In this document: piece after piece, positions 2,465 through 13,265 of the stretch
How the letters are laid out: each line of letters opens with the position of its first letter
How positions within the stretch are numbered: position 1 is the stretch's first letter
Source: an uncultured Bacteroidales bacterium
Lineage (GTDB): Bacteria; Bacteroidota; Bacteroidia; Bacteroidales; Barnesiellaceae
NCBI GenBank assembly: GCA_949298955.1
Contig: CASFYQ010000001.1
Location: 62,001-126,000, forward strand
Length of the DNA: 64,000 bases
Direction of reading: 5' to 3'
Notes under the pieces: generated by a model
What the model was told of the DNA's origin: nothing
Database searches by the model: none
Seen by the model: only the letters and a program-made list of their open reading frames with translations
Position numbers and translations under genes: made by a program

Positions 2465-2492
2465 TCCCGCTATAATTTTTTAATGATTCATT

Positions 2493-3908
2493 TTGGCACG
2501 GAAAAAGAAAGAGCTCCCTTTGTTGGAGCAAGTTGAGATAACCGGCGTAGCCGCCGAAGGGAAAGCGTTGGCGCGGGTGAACGATTGGGTGGTGTTTGTC
2601 CCCTTTGCGGCACCGGGCGATGTGGTCGACTTGCAGTTGACGCGCAAGAAGCACAACTATGCCGAGGCCCGCATTGTGAAATTCCACTCTTATTCGCAGT
2701 TGCGGGTGCAGCCTTTTTGCGAGCATTTCGGGGTGTGTGGCGGCTGTAAGTGGCAGCATGTGGCCTACGACTATCAGTTGCAGTTCAAGCGACAGCAGGT
2801 CGAAGATAATCTTACCCGCATCGGCAAGATTCCCTTGCCCGAGATTTTACCCACGAAAGGATCGGCCAAGCAGCAGTTCTACCGCAATAAGCTCGAGTTC
2901 TCGTTTTCCAACCGCTCGTGGCTTACCTACGAGCAGTTACAGTCGGCCCAGGAGTTCGATTGCCGCAATGCGTTGGGATTCCACATACCGGGTATGTTCG
3001 ACAAGGTGCTCGATATCAAGAAATGCTGGTTGCAGGACGACATCTCCAACCGCATACGCCTCTCGATACGGCAGTTTGCCATAGACCACAATTACCCCTT
3101 TTTCGACTTGAAAGAGCAGACGGGGTTCATGCGCAACATAATCGTACGCACTGCCTCGACGGGAGAGATTATGCTCATCGTCGTCTTTTTCGAACCCGAT
3201 GCGGCACGCATCGAGGCGATGATGCAGCACTTGGCCGAGGAGTTCCCTCAAATTACCTCGCTCCTTTATATTGTGAATCAGAAACAGAACGATACCATTA
3301 CCGACCAGGAGGTACACCTTTACCGGGGTCGCGATTACATTTGGGAGAGCATGGAGGGCTTGCGGTTCAAGATTGGTCCCAAGTCGTTTTACCAAACCAA
3401 TTCGGAACAGGCCTATGAACTCTACAAAGTGGCCCGCGAGTTTGCCGGACTCACCGGCGACGAACTGGTCTACGACCTTTACACGGGCACAGGCACGATT
3501 GCCAATTTCGTAGCCCGGCAGTCGAGAAAGGTCATAGGCATCGAGTATGTACCTGAGGCTATCGACGATGCCAAGGAGAATGCCCTCATCAACGGGTTGA
3601 ACAACACGCTGTTCTATGCCGGCGATATGAAAGATATTCTCACCGAGGCGTTTATCGACGAACATGGCCGTCCCGACGTTATCATTACCGACCCTCCCCG
3701 TGCCGGTATGCACGACGATGTGATCAAAACCATTCTTTTTGCCGAGCCCCGACGCATTGTCTATGTGAGTTGCAACCCGGCTACCCAGGCGCGCGACTTG
3801 TCGCAGCTCGATGTCAAGTATCGTGTGGAGCGCGTGCAGCCGGTCGACATGTTCCCCCACACCCACCATGTGGAGAATGTCGTGCTGCTGACTCGCAAAG
3901 ATTCATAG
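2493..3908 (+). CDS. rlmD: 23S rRNA (uracil-5-)-methyltransferase, RlmD/RumA family
   Basis: The 471-aa protein has an N-terminal TRAM domain (about residues 10-65), a [4Fe-4S] cysteine set (PFCEHFGVCGGCKW plus a later Cys), a SAM-binding Rossmann region (VYDLYTGTGTIANF) and the catalytic motif YVSCNPATQARDL near the C-terminus, where Cys attacks uracil C6. The family methylates U1939 or U747 of 23S rRNA (RlmD or RlmCD); which uridine is methylated here cannot be told. The start is a TTG codon at 2493; a nearby ATG at 2483 is in another frame. A strong terminator follows. Confidence 0.93.
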   Translation: MARKKKELPLLEQVEITGVAAEGKALARVNDWVVFVPFAAPGDVVDLQLTRKKHNYAEARIVKFHSYSQLRVQPFCEHFGVCGGCKWQHVAYDYQLQFKRQQVEDNLTRIGKIPLPEILPTKGSAKQQFYRNKLEFSFSNRSWLTYEQLQSAQEFDCRNALGFHIPGMFDKVLDIKKCWLQDDISNRIRLSIRQFAIDHNYPFFDLKEQTGFMRNIIVRTASTGEIMLIVVFFEPDAARIEAMMQHLAEEFPQITSLLYIVNQKQNDTITDQEVHLYRGRDYIWESMEGLRFKIGPKSFYQTNSEQAYELYKVAREFAGLTGDELVYDLYTGTGTIANFVARQSRKVIGIEYVPEAIDDAKENALINGLNNTLFYAGDMKDILTEAFIDEHGRPDVIITDPPRAGMHDDVIKTILFAEPRRIVYVSCNPATQARDLSQLDVKYRVERVQPVDMFPHTHHVENVVLLTRKDS

Positions 3909-3932: not shown

Positions 3933-3976
3933 AGCCGCTTCCCCTTTATTGCATCGGGGAGGCGGCTTTTTCTTTT
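3933..3976 (+). terminator. rho-independent terminator after rlmD
   Basis: AGCCGC...CCCC pairs with GGGG...GCGGCT around a short loop, followed by TTTTTCTTTT. Confidence 0.9.
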
Positions 3977-4010
3977 CGGGATAAAAGTGCAAGCAATGGA
4001 TAAAAAAGTA

Positions 4011-4043
4011 TTTGTTGCGACTTGTGTGACTGGCCTATTTTTG
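4011..4043 (+). promoter_or_regulatory. promoter of the DUF2961 gene
   Basis: TTTG at 4011-4014 and TATTTTTG at 4036-4043 with a 21-base spacer. It lies upstream of the ATG at 4073, which supports that start over an upstream TTG at 4022. Confidence 0.65.
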
Positions 4044-4072
4044 TAACAGCAAATTATCTTAAAGTTATATCC

Positions 4073-6046
4073 ATGAAAAGAAATCGTTTTATCAAATTGT
4101 TTACGGCTCTGGCGGTGCTCTCTGTATGGGGGGTAGGGCAGGCTTCCGATTCCCTTTCGACGGTATCGTACGGGTTGGCCCGCATGACCGACGTGTCGCA
4201 GCTTCCGGTGCTGGATTGTAATATGCGGGTCAAATACGAGGGGAGTATCGACAAGCAGGGAGGCAATGCCGACTGGGACTGGCACTTGTACCAGGATGCC
4301 CGGGGAGAGTGGGTGATCTTCGATGTGGCCGGTGCCGGTTGCATCTATAATATGGTACAACACCGTTACCTCTCTTCCGAAGATCCCGTATTCCGCTTTT
4401 ATTTCGACGGAGAGAGCGAACCCCGGTTTACGATACGGCTCTCGGAGTTCGGTGAGAAATATCCCTTCACCGAGCCGCAAGCCTCGTGCTATATCGGCCC
4501 GCTCGACAACGGCCGGGGGCCCATACGGGTGGTGCGAAGTTTCGTGCCCATGCCTTTTCGCAACGGTTGCCGCATCACATCGAGTGTGAAACTCGAAGGG
4601 GCGCAGCGCGACAAAGGCGAAGGTGGCTGGGGACATGTGGTTTATCACACCTATACCTCGCCCGAGGGGATAGAGACCTTTACCGGGCATGAAGATTACA
4701 GTCGACTGGTACGTCAGTGGAAACAGACCGGCAGCAATCCCGATACTTGTGCCATGCGCCTGATGCGCCTGCATGAACGGCCGATAGCTCCTGGCGACAC
4801 TCTCCCGTTGGCTCGTTTGCACGAGAGCGGCGTTATTCAATCTTTGCGCCTTTATGTGGCCGACATGACCCCCGACCGTTTGCAGAATCTGTGGATACGC
4901 CTGCGTTGGGACAGCCACGACAAAGCAGATGTGTGGTGCCCCATAGGCTGTTTTTTCGGCAATTCGCTGGGGTATAACAACACTCGCTATTTGCTCATGG
5001 GAACCACGACCGACGGCTGGTTCTACAACTATTTCCCGATGCCTTTCTGGAACGATGCCGAGGTCGCTTTGGTCAATCGCGGCGACAAGCCGGTCACCTT
5101 GGCATTTGCCGAGGTGGGGGTGGGCGAGAACCGCTATGAGCGGGAACGTTGCGGCTATTTTCGTTCCTCCGACTACTATCCTCGCCAGCATACACCGGGA
5201 GCCGACAGTCGCATTGCTTCGATTAAGGGAACGGGTAAAATGGTGGCTGCCCATGTGACCTGCTATGCCGAGCGTCCGCATATCATTACCTGCGAAGGCG
5301 ATGTGAGGATTCATATCGACGGTATTCGAACTCCGCAAGTCGAGAGCGACGGCTCTGAAAGTTACATCTGTTACGGCTGGGGATTCCCCACGCCGGCCGA
5401 GGGAAATCCATCGGGCGGATACGACGGGTTGAGCGATAACCCGTGGTCGATGACCCGTCTGTGTCTGGGCGACAGCTATCCTTTCTATTCATCGCTCGAT
5501 TTCGGCATAGAGTCGGGCGAGCACAATAACCAGTATCTCGAACATTCAGGAGCTGTCTTTTACTATGGGCGGGAGCGCTCCTCACTGGTCGAGACCGACA
5601 GCCTGGATTTGGCCTCGGCCCGGTCGGTAAAACGTCATCGTTACAAAGCGCGAGGCGAGGTATCGAAAACGCCTCTTACTGCATGTTTCGAGGGAGATGC
5701 CGACGATGTGGAGGTGTCGGCAACAGTCTGTCGGTTTACCGAAGAAAGTTCGTTCGAGGTAAAAATCTCACCCGCAAACCGGGGCGTGCGGTTGCGCCGG
5801 CTCAGCGATCAGCAGCAATCCCGACAGTGCGCCCGGGTGTGGGTCGACAACCGGGAGGTCGGCATCTGGTATTTGGCCGACAGTAATCCGTATAAGCGAT
5901 GGATTGAAGATGAATTTGAGATACCCGAGTCGTTTACCCGGGGAAAATCGACACTCCGGATACGTATCGTACCCGAGAGCCGTGAGGCCGGTGTACCGAT
6001 AACCTGGAACGAGGCAGCCTACGGAGTGTTCTGTTATACCGAATAG
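4073..6046 (+). CDS. secreted DUF2961 / GH172-family glycoside hydrolase
   Basis: The product is 657 aa when started at the ATG that gives a clean signal peptide (MKRNRF followed by a hydrophobic stretch ending at VGQAS). The mature part shows DUF2961 features: an FDVAGAGCIYNMVQHR strand, YFDGESEPRFTIRLSEF (the conserved '-DGE-P-v--pl--F' block) and a second jelly-roll region GCFFGNSLGYNNTRYLLMG with YNYFPMPFW. Characterised GH172 members cleave fructofuranosyl or D-arabinofuranosyl linkages; the substrate here is unknown. A C-terminal beta domain follows. It is monocistronic, ended by a bidirectional hairpin. The nearby sulfatase pair suggests a glycan-degrading neighbourhood, but co-function is only inferred. 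Confidence 0.8.
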   Translation: MKRNRFIKLFTALAVLSVWGVGQASDSLSTVSYGLARMTDVSQLPVLDCNMRVKYEGSIDKQGGNADWDWHLYQDARGEWVIFDVAGAGCIYNMVQHRYLSSEDPVFRFYFDGESEPRFTIRLSEFGEKYPFTEPQASCYIGPLDNGRGPIRVVRSFVPMPFRNGCRITSSVKLEGAQRDKGEGGWGHVVYHTYTSPEGIETFTGHEDYSRLVRQWKQTGSNPDTCAMRLMRLHERPIAPGDTLPLARLHESGVIQSLRLYVADMTPDRLQNLWIRLRWDSHDKADVWCPIGCFFGNSLGYNNTRYLLMGTTTDGWFYNYFPMPFWNDAEVALVNRGDKPVTLAFAEVGVGENRYERERCGYFRSSDYYPRQHTPGADSRIASIKGTGKMVAAHVTCYAERPHIITCEGDVRIHIDGIRTPQVESDGSESYICYGWGFPTPAEGNPSGGYDGLSDNPWSMTRLCLGDSYPFYSSLDFGIESGEHNNQYLEHSGAVFYYGRERSSLVETDSLDLASARSVKRHRYKARGEVSKTPLTACFEGDADDVEVSATVCRFTEESSFEVKISPANRGVRLRRLSDQQQSRQCARVWVDNREVGIWYLADSNPYKRWIEDEFEIPESFTRGKSTLRIRIVPESREAGVPITWNEAAYGVFCYTE

Positions 6047-6101
6047 CTTTTAGATTTCTGATTGATAAAAACCGCCTTTTCCCATTAAAAGGCCTGGAAA
6101 T

Positions 6102-6140
6102 GAAAATAGCTTTATGCTCGATGTGCATAAAGCTATTTTC
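6102..6140. terminator. bidirectional terminator between convergent genes
   Basis: A perfect 15-bp inverted repeat, GAAAATAGCTTTATG against CATAAAGCTATTTTC with a 9-base loop, sits between the convergent DUF2961 and sulfatase-maturase genes. Confidence 0.85.
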
Positions 6141-6143
6141 TTG

Positions 6144-7385
6144 TTATTTCATATTCGGGCGATTCTCGCGAATCCACTGCATCACGTTGGCAGGTGGTCG
6201 CTGATTGTCGAGTTCGCGTTTCATAAAATCCATGTAGGGAGCCACGTGTTCGAAAAACCGGTGATACCCGGCGCACAGGTAGTTGAGTCCCGGTTCGCCG
6301 GTTGCCGTGCGGGCAAATCGGTTCTTAGGGCATTCGCCGTGGCAGGCGAACAAGAAATCGCACTCTTTGCATTGTGAGGGCAGAGCATTGCGCTTGTTCT
6401 GCCCGAAAGCAATCTGCCGGGGACTGTTCATCATCTCGACGAGCGAGTGGGTGTAGATATTGCCCAGTTTGTATTCGGGAAAGACAAAGTGGTCGCAACT
6501 GTACACATCGCCATTAAACTCCATCACGCCGGCGTGACCGCAAGTCTCGGCCATGGAGCATACGCCCGGTATGACTCCGGCCCAGTTGGCCAACGTGGCG
6601 TCGAAAAGCTGTATGAAATATTCACCCACATCGTTGCGCACCCATTCGTCGAAGAGCGTGCAGAGGAACTCGCCCCACTGTTCGGGTGTGACCGAAAAAT
6701 CGGTCACACCAGCCGAGGTCTCCTCGTCGGGAGCCGCCAGTTGGCGGCCATCGTCGTGCTGGAAGATACGCTCGACGATAGGGGTAAACTGGATATATTT
6801 ACAATGTATCTCCTTGAAAAAACGGTAAAAGTCGAGCGGATAGTCGGCGTTGAAATCGTTTACCACAGCCAAGGCATTCCATTCCACACCATGTTTGTTG
6901 AGCAGGTTGATACCTTGCATTACCTTTACGAACGAGGGGCGTCCCTGTTTCGTCCGCCGGTATTCGTCGTGAAATTCTTGTGGCCCGTCGATGCTCACCC
7001 CCACCAGCCAGTTGTTTTCTTTAAAGAATCGGCACCAGCTGTCGGTGAGCAGTGTGCCATTGGTCTGTATGCTGTTCTCTATGACACGGCCCCGACCGTA
7101 TTGAGCCTGCAATTTCATTACCTTTTGGTAAAAATCGAGCGGCCGCATCAGTGTTTCGCCGCCGTGCCAGGTAAAGAGAATGTGGTCGCTGGCCTGGCTT
7201 TCGATATACTCTTTGATAAATTTCTCGAGCAGGCTCTCGCTCATGGTATGGCGGGGCGTATCGTGGTAGAGTTTGGCTTTCTCGGTATAGTAGCAGTAAG
7301 TACAGGCCAGATTGCAAATCGAGCCTACCGGCTTGGCCATGATATACATTACCCGGTCGAAGGGTGTATAGAGAGTCTTTCCCAT
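6144..7385 (-). CDS. anaerobic sulfatase-maturating enzyme (radical SAM/SPASM)
   Basis: A 413-aa radical SAM protein with the CX3CX2C cluster Cys24/Cys28/Cys31 (SICNLACTYCYY) and a C-terminal SPASM domain rich in Cys (CSMAETCGHAG, YSCDHF, CKECDFLFACHGECPKNRF). The family oxidises a Ser or Cys of sulfatases to formylglycine in the cytoplasm without oxygen. The ATG at 7385 is preferred over upstream codons because the core MGKTLYTPFDRVMYIMAKP begins there. It is divergent from the sulfatase at 7624, whose active-site residue is Ser, which suits an enzyme of this type. A -7 element (minus-strand TATTTTTG, 7417-7424) lies about 30 bases upstream. Confidence 0.93.
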   Translation of the reverse strand: MGKTLYTPFDRVMYIMAKPVGSICNLACTYCYYTEKAKLYHDTPRHTMSESLLEKFIKEYIESQASDHILFTWHGGETLMRPLDFYQKVMKLQAQYGRGRVIENSIQTNGTLLTDSWCRFFKENNWLVGVSIDGPQEFHDEYRRTKQGRPSFVKVMQGINLLNKHGVEWNALAVVNDFNADYPLDFYRFFKEIHCKYIQFTPIVERIFQHDDGRQLAAPDEETSAGVTDFSVTPEQWGEFLCTLFDEWVRNDVGEYFIQLFDATLANWAGVIPGVCSMAETCGHAGVMEFNGDVYSCDHFVFPEYKLGNIYTHSLVEMMNSPRQIAFGQNKRNALPSQCKECDFLFACHGECPKNRFARTATGEPGLNYLCAGYHRFFEHVAPYMDFMKRELDNQRPPANVMQWIRENRPNMK

Positions 7386-7416
7386 AATAGAATGTCTGTG
7401 ACGAAATTTCGGGTAA

Positions 7417-7424
7417 CAAAAATA
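7417..7424 (-). promoter_or_regulatory. -7 element for the sulfatase-maturase gene
   Basis: CAAAAATA on the plus strand reads TATTTTTG on the minus strand, 32 bases before the maturase start. I see no clear -33 element. Confidence 0.45.
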
Positions 7425-7503
7425 AAAAAAATAGGGCATAAATGGAGGGCCGGCCCGATAAATTTTCAAACGCAGGTTTATAGGAGAATCAAGATTTTAG
7501 CCT

Positions 7504-7511
7504 TATATTTG
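7504..7511 (+). promoter_or_regulatory. -7 element for the sulfatase gene
   Basis: TATATTTG at 7504-7511 matches TAnnTTTG, in the divergent region. The leader to the sulfatase ATG at 7624 would be about 105 bases. Confidence 0.5.
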
Positions 7512-7623
7512 TTACACGAAAATAGGATACGGTTTGGGATAAAAAATATTTGGAACGATGTTTCGATATTTTATTCTCCGCTCATTTGACCGATGTAGTG
7601 AAAATATCAAGATTGAGATAACC

Positions 7624-9138
7624 ATGAAATACAATCAGTTTTTAGGATTGGGATGCGGACTGTTGGCCGCGACTCTCCCGGTTGCGGCTCAGACGAGCGA
7701 CCGTCCCAATATTATTTTTATCCTGTGCGACGACATGGGATATGGCGACCTGGGATGTTACGGACAACAATACATCGATACTCCCAATCTCGACCGTATG
7801 GCTTCGGAGGGTATGCGATTTACGCAAGCCTATTCGGGGAGCCCGGTGAGTGCCCCCTCGCGGGCCTGCATCATGACCGGCCAGCACTCCGGTCATGGCG
7901 AGGTGCGTGGTAACAAGGAGTATTGGAAAGATAGCGATACGGTGCGTTATGGAATCAATACCGACTATGCCGTGGTGGGGCAGCATCCCTATGACCCCGA
8001 TCATGTGATTCTTACCGAGGTAATGAAAGACAACGGCTACACGACCGGCATGTTCGGTAAGTGGGCGGGAGGTTACGAAGGGTCGGTTTCTACTCCCGAC
8101 AAACGGGGTGTCGACGAGTTTTTCGGCTATATCTGTCAGTTTCAGGCACACTTGTACTATCCTAACTTTTTGAACCGTTACAACCCGGCTTTGGGCGATA
8201 CGGCCACGGTGCGCGTCGTACTCGACGAGAATATCGATTATCCCATGTGGGGCGCCGGATACAGCCAGCGCAAGCAATACTCGGCCGATCTCATTCACCG
8301 GGCTGCTCTCGAATGGCTTGACCGCCAGTCGGCTCGCCAACCCTTCTTCGGCTTTTTCACCTATACGCTGCCGCATGCCGAGCTGGTACAGCCCGAGGAT
8401 TCTCTGTTGAACAAATATCGCGTGCGGCTGGGCGAGAAGGGGCTGTTCACGGGCGACTATTGGAGCCGCTACAATCCCGTGACTCACACCCATGCGCAGT
8501 TTGCCGCCATGATCGAGAGACTCGATTGCTATGTGGGCGAGATTTTAGCCAAGCTCAAAGAGAAAGGACTCGACGAAAATACGATAGTTATATTCTCGTC
8601 GGACAACGGCCCGCACGAGGAGGGTGGGGCCGACCCGACTTTCTTCGGCCGTGACGGCAAGTTGAAGGGGCTGAAATGTTCGTGTCACGAAGGGGGAATC
8701 CGTGTCCCTTTCATCGTGCGCTGGCCGGGTCATGTGCCGGTATCGGTCAATGACCATCAACTGGCCTTCTATGACCTGTTGCCCACCTTCTGCGACCTTA
8801 CAGGAGTAAAGAATTATGAAAAGCGATATGCGAATGGGGAGTCCGACTATTTTGACGGTCTCTCCTTCGCATCGACCTTGCTGGGTGATGACCCGATGCA
8901 GAAACAGCACGATTTTCTCTACTGGGAGTTTTGTGTGACCGACCAAATAGCTGTTCGCCAGGGCGACTGGAAACTTTTTGTCGAGAAGGGTGTGTGCCAC
9001 CTTTATAACTTGGCCAATGACATTCATGAGGACTGCGATCTGGCAACCCAATATCCCGAACGGGTGGAGGCCATGAAGCGAATCGTGTTTGATCAACACG
9101 TGGATAATCCCCATTTCAAAGTAACGATGCCGCAGTAA
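7624..9138 (+). CDS. secreted serine-type sulfatase (S1 family)
   Basis: This 504-aa protein starts with a signal peptide (MKYNQFLGLGCGLLAATLPVAAQ). The sulfatase signature is SAPSRACIMTGQHSG with Ser76 at the position converted to formylglycine. Metal ligands are visible in ILCDDMGYGDLG near the N-terminus and FSSDNGPHEEGG in the middle, and GKLKGLKCSCHEGGIRVP is the conserved Lys/Glu-rich block. It would hydrolyse sulfate esters in the periplasm or outside the cell, with a glycan or aryl substrate that I cannot determine. The maturase gene lies divergently next door. It converges with the aldehyde dehydrogenase gene with only 6 bases between the stops. The start at 7624 is chosen because the signal peptide begins there. 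Confidence 0.92.
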   Translation: MKYNQFLGLGCGLLAATLPVAAQTSDRPNIIFILCDDMGYGDLGCYGQQYIDTPNLDRMASEGMRFTQAYSGSPVSAPSRACIMTGQHSGHGEVRGNKEYWKDSDTVRYGINTDYAVVGQHPYDPDHVILTEVMKDNGYTTGMFGKWAGGYEGSVSTPDKRGVDEFFGYICQFQAHLYYPNFLNRYNPALGDTATVRVVLDENIDYPMWGAGYSQRKQYSADLIHRAALEWLDRQSARQPFFGFFTYTLPHAELVQPEDSLLNKYRVRLGEKGLFTGDYWSRYNPVTHTHAQFAAMIERLDCYVGEILAKLKEKGLDENTIVIFSSDNGPHEEGGADPTFFGRDGKLKGLKCSCHEGGIRVPFIVRWPGHVPVSVNDHQLAFYDLLPTFCDLTGVKNYEKRYANGESDYFDGLSFASTLLGDDPMQKQHDFLYWEFCVTDQIAVRQGDWKLFVEKGVCHLYNLANDIHEDCDLATQYPERVEAMKRIVFDQHVDNPHFKVTMPQ

Positions 9139-9144
9139 GGCGAT

Positions 9145-10521
9145 TTATTTCATCAGTCGTTTCAGCCATTTCAGCTTTTCGCCATAGGGGGCGATGCGGA
9201 AATTGGAGTAGAGACGTTGGGCCGAGGTGACGATTCCTCGCCGATGGCTGAACGTCTCAAAACTTGTGCGTCCGTGATAAGCCCCCATGCCGCTATTGCC
9301 TATACCTCCGAAGGGCAAGTGACCGTTGGCCGTTTGCATGACGGTGTCGTTGATGCAGGCGCCGCCCGACGAGGTGTGCTGTATCATGTAGCGGGCCCGT
9401 TTGCGGCTGCGAGTGAAATAGTAGAGAGCCAGTGGTTTTTCGTGCCGGTTGATATGCTCTATGCAGTCGTCGATGTCGTCGAACGGTATCACAGGGAGTA
9501 TAGGGCCGAATATCTCGTCGGTGAGCAGGGGCGACCGAGGGTCGATGTCGGTGAGCAGTGTAGGGGCTATGTAGCGGTCGGCAGGGTCGCAGGTCGCTCC
9601 GCACAAGGGAGTTCCGTGGGAGAGTAGAGTGGCCAGCCGTTCAAAATGACGTGCGTTGACGATGCGGGGATAGTCGGGGTTGTGCTGTGGGTCTTCGCCG
9701 TATTGTCGCACGATTTCTTGTCGCATCAGGTCGATGAACTGCGATGCTATCCGGCTGTGTACCAATAGATAGTCGGGCGCTACGCAAGTTTGTCCGCAAT
9801 TTAAAAACTTTCCCCACACGATGCGGCAGGCGGCAGTAGGCAGGTGTGCGTCATCGTCGACGATACAGGGACTTTTTCCGCCCAGTTCGAGCGTGACAGG
9901 GGTGAGGTACCGGGCGGCAGCCTGCATTACATGGCGTCCGTACTCTACACCGCCGGTGTAGAAAATGTAGTCGAATCGCTCTTGCAACAGTGTCTCGGTC
10001 GTTTCGCGTCGGGCATCGGTCACGGCAATGTACTCCTCTTCGAAACATTCGTCGATGAGTTCCTTCAAGGCACGAGCCGTGTGAGGAGCTTCGCCCGAGG
10101 GTTTCACAATAGCACAGTTGCCTGCCGCAATGGCTCCTACCAAGGGCGACAGAGCCAGTTGCAGAGGGTAGTTCCACGGGGAGATGATGAGTACGCAGCC
10201 GTAGGGCTCGTAGTGTATACGGCTTTTGGACCCGAAGAGAAACAGGGGAGTGTGGCATCGGCGATCGCGGGTCCAGTCTTGCAAATGATTTTTGACTGTG
10301 CGTATCTCGTGGAGAAGGAATCCGATTTCGGTGGCGTAGCTCTCGAACGGCGATTTCCCCAAATCGGCCCGCAGCGCCTCGGTCAGTTCCTTTTCACGGG
10401 AAACGAGCCCCTCGGCCAGACGGTCGAGGGCACATAGCCTGAACGGGATTTCTCGGGTGATGTGTTCGTCAAAAAATGCTCCTTGCAGTTTTACCAGCTG
10501 ATGATAGTCGCGCTCTTCCAT
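9145..10521 (-). CDS. aldehyde dehydrogenase (ALDH3-like)
   Basis: A 458-aa NAD(P)-dependent aldehyde dehydrogenase. Visible motifs are SPWNYPLQL, the glutamate block VTLELGGKSPCIV and the catalytic Cys in FLNCGQTCVAPDY, followed by EIFGPILPVIPF. The length and the absence of the longer N-terminus match the class-3 / fatty-aldehyde group, which oxidises medium- and long-chain aldehydes to acids. A hydrophobic or basic C-terminal tail (KWLKRLMK) might touch membranes. On the minus strand a TATCTTTA-like element sits about 15-25 bases before the ATG. It appears monocistronic. Confidence 0.92.
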   Translation of the reverse strand: MEERDYHQLVKLQGAFFDEHITREIPFRLCALDRLAEGLVSREKELTEALRADLGKSPFESYATEIGFLLHEIRTVKNHLQDWTRDRRCHTPLFLFGSKSRIHYEPYGCVLIISPWNYPLQLALSPLVGAIAAGNCAIVKPSGEAPHTARALKELIDECFEEEYIAVTDARRETTETLLQERFDYIFYTGGVEYGRHVMQAAARYLTPVTLELGGKSPCIVDDDAHLPTAACRIVWGKFLNCGQTCVAPDYLLVHSRIASQFIDLMRQEIVRQYGEDPQHNPDYPRIVNARHFERLATLLSHGTPLCGATCDPADRYIAPTLLTDIDPRSPLLTDEIFGPILPVIPFDDIDDCIEHINRHEKPLALYYFTRSRKRARYMIQHTSSGGACINDTVMQTANGHLPFGGIGNSGMGAYHGRTSFETFSHRRGIVTSAQRLYSNFRIAPYGEKLKWLKRLMK

Positions 10522-10720
10522 ATTGTCGATTTTGTCGATAAAGATAATGAATCGTCGTGAGATATGGTTTGAAATCGCACGAATTTCCGGGGTATATTCC
10601 CGACGTGTACCGTTTTTATACTTTTTCTTGAAGAGCTAACGGCTTGCGCATCATTATTGTATGGTGGCAAAGAAAAAATATCGCTTCGATTTCTCGGAAT
10701 GGAGTCAAACAGAGCCGGTT

Positions 10721-10789
10721 TAAAAAAGGAAAGGTTGTCTCACGACAACCAATCTTCATTAACCTTAAATCTAATACTATGAAAAACAC
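10721..10789 (-). ncRNA. putative small RNA of about 70 nt
   Basis: On the minus strand a promoter (TTGACA, 17-base spacer, TATATTTG) is followed by about 50 bases of A/T-rich leader and then by a perfect 7-bp hairpin, GGTTGTC-GTGA-GACAACC (10750 to 10733), and a TTTCCTTTTTT run. The transcript would be roughly 68-70 nt and encodes no obvious protein. It lies between two genes of other function, and the downstream aldehyde dehydrogenase appears to have its own promoter, so a stand-alone RNA is more likely than a leader. I do not recognise a known RNA family; termination by this hairpin is inferred. Confidence 0.55.
10733..10750 (-). terminator. terminator hairpin of the putative sRNA
   Basis: GGTTGTC/GACAACC with a 4-base loop, followed on the minus strand by TTTCCTTTTTT (10732 to 10722). 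Confidence 0.6.
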
Positions 10790-10793
10790 GTTG

Positions 10794-10824
10794 CAAATAT
10801 ATGAATTTTTCATGTCGGTGTCAA
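10794..10824 (-). promoter_or_regulatory. promoter of the putative sRNA
   Basis: Minus strand: TTGACA (10824 to 10819) and TATATTTG (10801 to 10794), with a 17-base spacer. The -7 element is an exact Bacteroidetes consensus. Confidence 0.6.
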
Positions 10825-11012
10825 GAAAAATCATCTAAAAAGTGTCTGTTTATAGTATTATTTAATATTTCGGTGTAAAATTTACCAGTTTTATTCAAAA
10901 AGATGGGGCTTTTTTGAAGATCTTCCGGATATTTGTCGGCACGAAAAAAGTAGACAGACAGTGAGCTATTGTCATAAAGAAATCGCTATCTTCGTAGCTT
11001 GAAAAATAGAGT

Positions 11013-13265
11013 ATGATAGACCAGGCAACAATCGATAAAATTATGGCCGCTACCGACATCGTCGATGTCGTCTCCGATTTCGTCAGTTTGCGTCGGCGGG
11101 GGGCCAATTATTGGGGATTGTGTCCGTTTCACGACGACAAGACACCATCGTTTAGTGTGTCGCAGTCGAAGGGGGTGTGCAAATGTTTCAGTTGCGGAAA
11201 AGGTGGTAGCGCCATACATTTTATTATGGAGCACGAACAGCTCTCTTATTACGAGGCACTCAAATACCTGGCCAAGAAATACAACATCGAAATTCATGAG
11301 AAGGAGCTGACCGACGAGGAGAAACAGAAACGGAGCGACCGTGAAAGCATGTTTGTAATAAACTCTTTTGCACAGGAGTTTTTCAGCAAGTCGCTGCTCG
11401 AGACCGACGAGGGGCGTTCGGTAGGCTTGGCCTATTTCAAGGAGCGGGGTTTCAATGAAGACATCATACGCAAATTCGGGTTGGGCTATTCGCCCGAGAA
11501 GCGCGATGCCCTGGCTTTGGAGGCTCAAAAGCGGGGCTACAAAATCGACTATCTGCTCAAAACCGGACTTTGTCGTGAAGGGCAGGAGGGGCGCGTCTAC
11601 GACCTGTTTTCGGGACGGGTTATGTTCCCGGTTTACAGTGTGTCGGGCAAGGTAGTTGCTTTTGGCGGCCGCATCTTGAAGTCGGGCGTGAAGATAAGCA
11701 AGTATTTCAACTCGCCCGAGTCGGACATTTATCACAAGAGCAACGAACTCTACGGCATCTACCAAGCCAAACGGGCCATCGAAAAAGAGCGGTGCTGCTA
11801 CCTTGTCGAAGGGTATACCGATGTGCTGTCGATGCACCAATCGGGCATCGAAAATGTGGTGGCCTCGTCGGGTACGGCGCTTACTCATGGGCAAATACGT
11901 CTGATTCACCGTTTTACCGACAATATCACGGTACTCTACGATGGTGACGCCGCGGGCATTAAGGCTTCGTTGCGAGGAATCGATCTCATTCTCCAAGAGG
12001 GGCTCAACATCAAAGTCGTGCTTTTGCCCGACGGCGAAGACCCCGATTCGTTCTCCAAAAGCCAAAGTGCCGAGTCGTTTAGACGATATATCCGGGCACA
12101 CGAAACCGATTTTATCCGGTTCAAAACCCAGTTGTTGCTCGACGATGCGGGCGAGGATCCCATCAAGCGGGCGGCCATCATTTCGAATATCGTCGAGAGT
12201 ATTTCGCTTATCCCCGATGCCATTGTCCGTTCGGTCTATGTGCAGGAGTGTAGTCGGCTGCTGCAAATCGACGAGCAGGTACTCCTCTCGGAATTGAACA
12301 ATCGTCGGCAGAAACGGGCCGAGCAGCAATCCTCTCGCGAGCGATACTCCTCGACCGAGGAACGCCGGTCTCAATCGCAACCGCAGGCGACGGCAACACC
12401 GCAAGCCGGTGGCACGACGACCACGGTCGGGACCGCAAGCGAATCCGGTGAGGCTCCACCGCCTCCTTCGCTTGACGATATGCCGGTTTCGGCAACCGAA
12501 CCCTCGGACAGTTTCTTGTCGCAACGAGTGGACCGCCGCTCGCCACTCGACAAATACGAGCGGGAGATTGTCCGCTATATTGTACGTTACGGGTATCGTA
12601 ACCTGTTTGAGACAGGCGAGGGGTCCTGGCAAAAGGTGTGGGAGTATATTGCCGAGGAGCTATCTATCGACAACATCGAGCTGAGCAATCCGCTGTACCG
12701 GCAGATGGTCCGGCTGGCTGCGGAGCAACGCGAGCATGAAGCCCGGCAGGAGGCTGCCCTGCGGGCCGATTTGCAAATCAAAGCCCGGCAGCGTATCGAT
12801 GAGGCTATCGAGCAAATACGACTCGAAAGCGGTGATATTGCCGAGAAACAACGCAAAGAGGCCGAGGCAGAAGAGCGTATCGCTCGTGAAATGGACGTAG
12901 AGTTACAAGTCTTCGAGACCAATTTTCTCGAACGTTATTTTACCACCTATCCCGACAGCCAAATCAGTTTGCTTGCAGTCGATTTGGTGAGTGAGAAATA
13001 CCAACTCAGCAAGGTGCATACCAAGTTTCAAAAGGTCGAGTTGGAGACCGATCGCTTGTGGGAACTCATTCCCCGGGCTATCTACGAGCTGAAAAACGCC
13101 ATTCTCGAGCAATCTATCAAGCAGATACAGGAGCAACTCAAAGAGGCGACTCGTGCCAAGGACGACCGGCGGGTGAATGAGCTTATCGAACAAAATGTCG
13201 AGCTTAACCGGGTGAGAACCACCTTGGCCAAACAGATAGGCGATCGCATCGTTTCTCCCAAATAA
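11013..13265 (+). CDS. dnaG: DNA primase
   Basis: This 750-aa primase synthesises RNA primers at the replication fork. The CHC2 zinc finger is Cys37/His40/Cys58/Cys61 (GLCPFHDDKTPSFSVS, CFSCGKGG); the primase core and TOPRIM domain follow (FPVYSVSGKVVAFGGR, YLVEGYTDVLSMHQ with the acidic Glu, LYDGDAAG). From about residue 440 to 500 comes a Gln/Thr/Ser-rich low-complexity linker, then a long helical C-terminal part rich in Glu, Gln and Arg, probably the DnaB-binding domain. The protein is longer than typical 580-660 aa primases, mainly because of this linker and C-terminal part. It is preceded by a near-consensus TATCTTCG element. Confidence 0.96.
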   Translation: MIDQATIDKIMAATDIVDVVSDFVSLRRRGANYWGLCPFHDDKTPSFSVSQSKGVCKCFSCGKGGSAIHFIMEHEQLSYYEALKYLAKKYNIEIHEKELTDEEKQKRSDRESMFVINSFAQEFFSKSLLETDEGRSVGLAYFKERGFNEDIIRKFGLGYSPEKRDALALEAQKRGYKIDYLLKTGLCREGQEGRVYDLFSGRVMFPVYSVSGKVVAFGGRILKSGVKISKYFNSPESDIYHKSNELYGIYQAKRAIEKERCCYLVEGYTDVLSMHQSGIENVVASSGTALTHGQIRLIHRFTDNITVLYDGDAAGIKASLRGIDLILQEGLNIKVVLLPDGEDPDSFSKSQSAESFRRYIRAHETDFIRFKTQLLLDDAGEDPIKRAAIISNIVESISLIPDAIVRSVYVQECSRLLQIDEQVLLSELNNRRQKRAEQQSSRERYSSTEERRSQSQPQATATPQAGGTTTTVGTASESGEAPPPPSLDDMPVSATEPSDSFLSQRVDRRSPLDKYEREIVRYIVRYGYRNLFETGEGSWQKVWEYIAEELSIDNIELSNPLYRQMVRLAAEQREHEARQEAALRADLQIKARQRIDEAIEQIRLESGDIAEKQRKEAEAEERIAREMDVELQVFETNFLERYFTTYPDSQISLLAVDLVSEKYQLSKVHTKFQKVELETDRLWELIPRAIYELKNAILEQSIKQIQEQLKEATRAKDDRRVNELIEQNVELNRVRTTLAKQIGDRIVSPK

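Follow-up and report, generated by a model that had tools for sequence, protein, structure and literature searches.

A FopS small RNA gene next to dnaG in a Barnesiella genome without a detectable rbpB gene

The locus and its small RNA gene

The window analyzed here is a 64,000-nucleotide stretch of a Barnesiella genome (G000, the host; 2.54 Mb, 99.9% complete), whose DnaG shares 81-86% identity with several Barnesiella proteins. The minus strand contains a gene for a small RNA (sRNA) of the FopS family, located between dnaG and an aldehyde dehydrogenase gene. The features of the locus, in window coordinates, are:

9145-10521, minus strand: aldehyde dehydrogenase gene (Pfam Aldedh), co-oriented and downstream
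10719-10789, minus strand: FopS sRNA gene (RF04319), 71 nt, full-model match in cmscan
10721-10732, minus strand: T-rich tract TTTCCTTTTTTA of the intrinsic terminator, from the sequence
10733-10750, minus strand: terminator hairpin GGTTGTC-GTGA-GACAACC, from sequence and fold, pairing kept across the family
10759-10789, minus strand: single-stranded 5' seed region GTGTTTTTCATAGTATTAGATTTAAGGTTAA, including R1/R1', invariant in the nine Barnesiella dnaG-linked copies; seed named in PMC11697453
10794-10801, minus strand: -7 element TATATTTG (sigma-ABfr TAnnTTTG), from the sequence, kept in orthologs
10819-10824, minus strand: -33 region with a conserved TTG; the complete TTGACA is limited to this copy
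10841-10864, minus strand: degenerate remnant of an upstream palindrome at about -70 (AATAATACTATAAACAGAC; AATAATGTTGTATAACAG in the G001 ortholog), from sequence comparison
11013-13265, plus strand: dnaG (primase; Pfam Zn_ribbon_DnaG, DNAG_N and Toprim), divergent neighbor

A cmscan search against Rfam 15 matched minus-strand positions 10719-10789 to RF04319 (BTncRNA_FopS) over model positions 1-71, without truncation, at 76.7 bits (gathering cut-off 56; E = 1.7e-9 for 64 kb). The best-aligned part of the match is consensus 1-32, which is reproduced almost letter for letter, and the 5' R1/R1' seed region is unpaired in the predicted fold. The hairpin (10750-10733), which starts about 43 nt after the -7 element (10801-10794), is followed on the minus strand by TTTCCTTTTTT. 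The hairpin alone is not exceptional for its composition (fold z = -1.5), so these signals by themselves would not prove a gene; it is the full-length covariance-model match, together with the constancy of the sequence in nine Barnesiella genomes, that goes beyond chance. The element beside dnaG is an independent sRNA gene that belongs to the known FopS family and is not new. The initial annotation, made from the sequence alone, had proposed that the minus strand specifies an independent regulatory RNA of about 70 nt that encodes no protein, and the match to the 71-position model supports this proposal; the TTGACA, 17-nt spacer, TATATT(TG), perfect hairpin and T-rich tract that it listed are all present, whereas its leader of about 50 bases has to be shortened to a transcribed stretch of about 39 nt (10789-10751) before the hairpin. 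Its statement that no protein is encoded also stands: a small peptide was considered and rejected because paralogs differ in the stretch that separates seed from hairpin, with no frame kept, and the overlapping open reading frames were rejected as coding since they start outside the FopS transcript or run the opposite way.

GibS and other Rfam families were rejected as the identity of this RNA because their scores are below the cut-offs. In particular, GibS (RF04182; 44 bits, cut-off 115) has the 5' R1 sequence in common with it; the second structured GibS domain is absent, however, and the promoter is of the sigma-ABfr type, not PM2. BTnc231 (RF04180) likewise gives a sub-threshold match (42.6 bits, curated cut-off 80.4) and is a longer RNA. 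Elsewhere in the window, a cobalamin riboswitch (RF00174, 104.8 bits) is found at 844-1048 on the plus strand.

By its sequence, the promoter of this copy is of the Bacteroidota sigma-ABfr type (TTG ... TAnnTTTG). The minus strand contains TTGACA (10824-10819), a 17-nt spacer and TATATT(TG) (10801-10794), a promoter-like site with 11 of 12 positions matched, the best of five such sites in 3 kb (shuffled sequences give 2.3). Promoters of orthologs retain only the TTG at -33 and the TAnnTTTG at -7 and do not have the full TTGACA, which is private to this species; the reading of TTGACA as the -35 of an E. coli-like -35/-10 promoter, adopted in the initial annotation, is therefore rejected. TAnnTTTG is present in 110 copies of the family (91 non-redundant), in a count that was anchored on TAnnTTTG itself. 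A palindrome that the window copy has between -33 and -7, ATGAAAAATTCAT, was discarded as a candidate element, being not conserved in orthologs. Two further features recur in nearly all FopS copies: a T-run near -45 and, some 60-70 nt ahead of the -7 box, a second conserved element that is A-rich and then AATGTTAAA-like.

Copies, conservation and predicted pairing with susC

Six FopS copies score above the cut-off in the host genome and 5-6 in each of eight congeners. At least one copy above the cut-off is found in 17 of 60 relatives, and the family is also represented in Bacteroides fragilis Q1F2, Parabacteroides chinchillae, a Coprobacter MAG, Phocaeicola faecicola and Dysgonomonas sp. 216; thus, it is not confined to Bacteroidaceae, for which its conservation was described by the authors of FopS (PMC11697453). 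All nine Barnesiella genomes, and also locus L074, have the copy head to head with dnaG; no FopS was found beside dnaG in the dnaG loci of Bacteroides, Phocaeicola and others. This linkage is real in Barnesiella, yet it tells little about function because paralogs sit at unrelated loci.

The first 35 nt of the dnaG-linked copy are identical in all nine Barnesiella genomes and positions 36-62 are 93-100% identical, compared with 43-60% for the promoter flank (-13 to -72) and 27-53% for the 3' flank. A constant RNA between divergent flanks implies that selection acts on the RNA. Across the family, there are 48 distinct hairpins that vary in stem sequence with the pairing kept (for example, GGTTGTC/GACAACC, GGCTGTC/GACAGCC, GGAGTAC/GTACTCC and GGAGCAA/TTGCTCC), in a table for which stems were picked for pairing and which thus leans toward kept pairing. 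The earlier suggestion of a conserved RNA is supported by these data and by the spread of the family across Bacteroidales. An exact FopS core is also found in 24 viral contigs (L149-L172), adjoining the terminase large-subunit gene in L161 (5121) and L153 (261). Several of these cores are preceded by an ORF or a tRNA-like end and have no sigma-ABfr promoter, which suggests possible processing from phage transcripts.

FopS was described in 2025 in B. thetaiotaomicron, where it has 14 copies and pairs at the start codons of SusC-like transporter mRNAs to repress their translation (PMC11697453). Nine SusC genes of the host pass the family cut-off, and their start regions (-45 to +25; SusC starts chosen by hand) were compared with those of a sample of 98 other genes for pairing with the 31-nt seed, using duplex-only energies that leave accessibility out. 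SusC start regions are predicted to pair with the seed at a mean of -14.3 kcal/mol, compared with -10.4 for the other genes (Mann-Whitney p = 4e-4; AT-matched p = 1.3e-3), and none of 300 dinucleotide-shuffled seeds pairs as well with SusC. The strongest predicted target (G000 C3:98881) reaches -19.1 kcal/mol. Its orthologs in G001, G006 and G008 keep the block TTAAATCTAAAA just before ATGAA, with differing sequence upstream, and give -14.6 to -16.1 (1-3 of 300 shuffles reach the value). Several SusC genes have no good pairing with the seed, and in two other SusC groups complementarity to it is slight or absent. Long perfect antisense targets were rejected: the long seed complement occurs elsewhere in the genome only in FopS copies, plus one shorter site with one mismatch, and has no second site within the window. 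Together, these predictions indicate that the unpaired 5' seed may pair with the start regions of a number of susC genes.

Distribution of RbpB in Barnesiella

In B. thetaiotaomicron, the RRM-1 protein RbpB binds and antagonizes FopS (PMC11697453); this association was observed in that species and is not part of the Rfam definition of RF04319. No RRM_1 gene was found in the host genome. Among the nine Barnesiella genomes, an 81-aa RRM protein is encoded in three (G005, G006 and G007), any match to RRM_1 is lacking in five (G000, G002, G003, G004 and G008), and the closed genome G001 has an RRM only at the C-terminus of a 612-aa protein (L191:934-2772), the small RRM-1 protein being absent. In the three carriers, rbpB is flanked by a helicase-like gene and a 343-aa ORF. 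This junction was compared in the carriers and in G000, G001, G002 and G008, with G003 and G004 outside the comparison; it is intact without rbpB in G001, G002 and G008 (gap of 97 to about 300 nt), and in the host it holds instead a type V-A CRISPR-Cas system comprising Cas12a (1283 aa), Cas1, a Cas4-like protein and a 16-repeat array (L185, G000 C10:50001-64000, at 2483-3500 and 3952-9331). In other families, G029, G033 and G049 have 5-6 FopS matches each and no RRM_1. The FopS sequence is unchanged in the Barnesiella without rbpB, so the reported partnership with RbpB is not needed to keep FopS. It seems not to have been reported in the literature consulted that most of the Barnesiella examined, including the host, combine the absence of RbpB with an unchanged FopS.

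The Barnesiella FopS thus resembles that of B. thetaiotaomicron in length (about 70 nt), in its sigma-ABfr promoter and intrinsic terminator, in an unstructured 5' end that contains the R1/R1' seed, in the presence of several paralogs in one genome and in complementarity, here predicted, to susC start regions. It differs in the number of copies (six compared with 12-15), in the dnaG-linked copy, which is found only in Barnesiella and one further locus, and in a host that is outside Bacteroidaceae and has no RbpB partner. The published targets and the RbpB link come from another family of the order; family membership, promoter, terminator, copy number, constancy, the absence of rbpB and above-background susC complementarity were computed here. 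That the dnaG-linked copy gives rise to a transcript and controls susC in Barnesiella is our inference.

A candidate upstream operator and the proposed circuit

Induction by bile salts is among the properties ascribed to the FopS family. The description of FopS names no transcriptional regulator and does not mention BT4338 (PMC11697453). At least 10 of the 12 letters of TATGTTNNNNAACATA are found within 100 nt upstream of 57 of 114 FopS copies (shuffled sequences, mean 3.1 and maximum 6), a set that includes orthologs and paralogs and is thus not made up of independent copies. The motif starts mostly at -35 to -37 and in a few cases at -68/-69; the -36 and -69 positions differ by about three helical turns. 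Three of the 19 sites with at most one mismatch in the host genome fall at FopS promoters. The palindrome TATGTTnTAnAACATA is found at FopS promoters G000 C10:34558, C3:137387 and C7:106645 and in relatives. This palindrome corresponds to the consensus wwwTATGTTnTAnAACATAwww, which has been assigned to the Crp-like regulator BT4338 (PMC3878776), with support from ChIP and promoter deletion at fusA2 (PMC6989115). The host has a Crp-family gene, a possible BT4338 ortholog, with a 12/14 site just upstream. It seems to be unreported in the literature consulted that half of the FopS promoters across Bacteroidales carry this putative BT4338/Cur operator consensus. Cur control of the dnaG-linked copy itself is doubtful because its upstream site is degenerate.

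We consider it highly probable that the gene beside dnaG encodes a FopS sRNA whose seed represses susC translation starts, together with the other copies in the genome, and that it does so in this host without RbpB. Transcription from the sigma-ABfr promoter would yield an RNA of about 71 nt ending at the intrinsic terminator; its unstructured 5' seed would base-pair with the start-codon region of mRNAs that encode SusC-like outer-membrane glycan transporters and block translation initiation, such that the transporters would not be made when not needed. The six copies would act together, probably in a dosage-additive manner, and since the rbpB gene is missing, FopS control in the host would run without RbpB.

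That the 5' region is kept in Barnesiella chiefly as the site of an RNA-binding protein that replaces RbpB, and not as a seed, is unlikely. Such a site could account for 35 invariant nucleotides of 35, more than one seed needs, and for an unchanged sequence where RbpB is absent in most congeners, but no candidate protein was identified, and the complementarity to susC starts is above background and kept in orthologs. Regulation of dnaG by this copy, through transcription interference or action on the dnaG leader, would fit the head-to-head linkage in the nine genomes and L074, but is very improbable given that the RNA overlaps neither dnaG nor its leader, that the seed is common to paralogs elsewhere and that dnaG loci of Bacteroides, Phocaeicola and others have no FopS. 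There is equally little reason to regard the copy as decayed or silent, without a present role: its upstream palindrome is degenerate and five other copies could substitute, but the RNA, its terminator and its core promoter are all intact and clearly constrained. Finally, a 5' leader or attenuator of the aldehyde dehydrogenase mRNA, as might be suggested by the shared strand, the distance of about 200 nt to the start codon and the terminator-like hairpin in between, can practically be dismissed, because that gene was not found beside the conserved FopS in the congeners examined (tblastn of neighbors), paralogs with the same seed and terminator adjoin unrelated genes, and RF04319 is a family of free sRNAs.

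FopS sRNAs are a recently described layer of control over glycan uptake in gut Bacteroidota, so far known in conjunction with RbpB. With repression of susC by FopS as the preferred reading, the role of these sRNAs without the partner RbpB is now testable in the host, and the members of the genus, which share an identical FopS whether or not they have rbpB, are a natural experiment on the contribution of the RNA-binding protein. More tentatively, the FopS circuit might be RbpB-independent in Barnesiella and perhaps in other Bacteroidales, with the sRNAs regulating susC alone and BT4338/Cur as a common upstream regulator. The Cur-type operator points to a candidate for the "unknown transcriptional regulator" that the authors of FopS did not name; if this is true, carbon limitation would set the sRNA control of transporters through BT4338/Cur.
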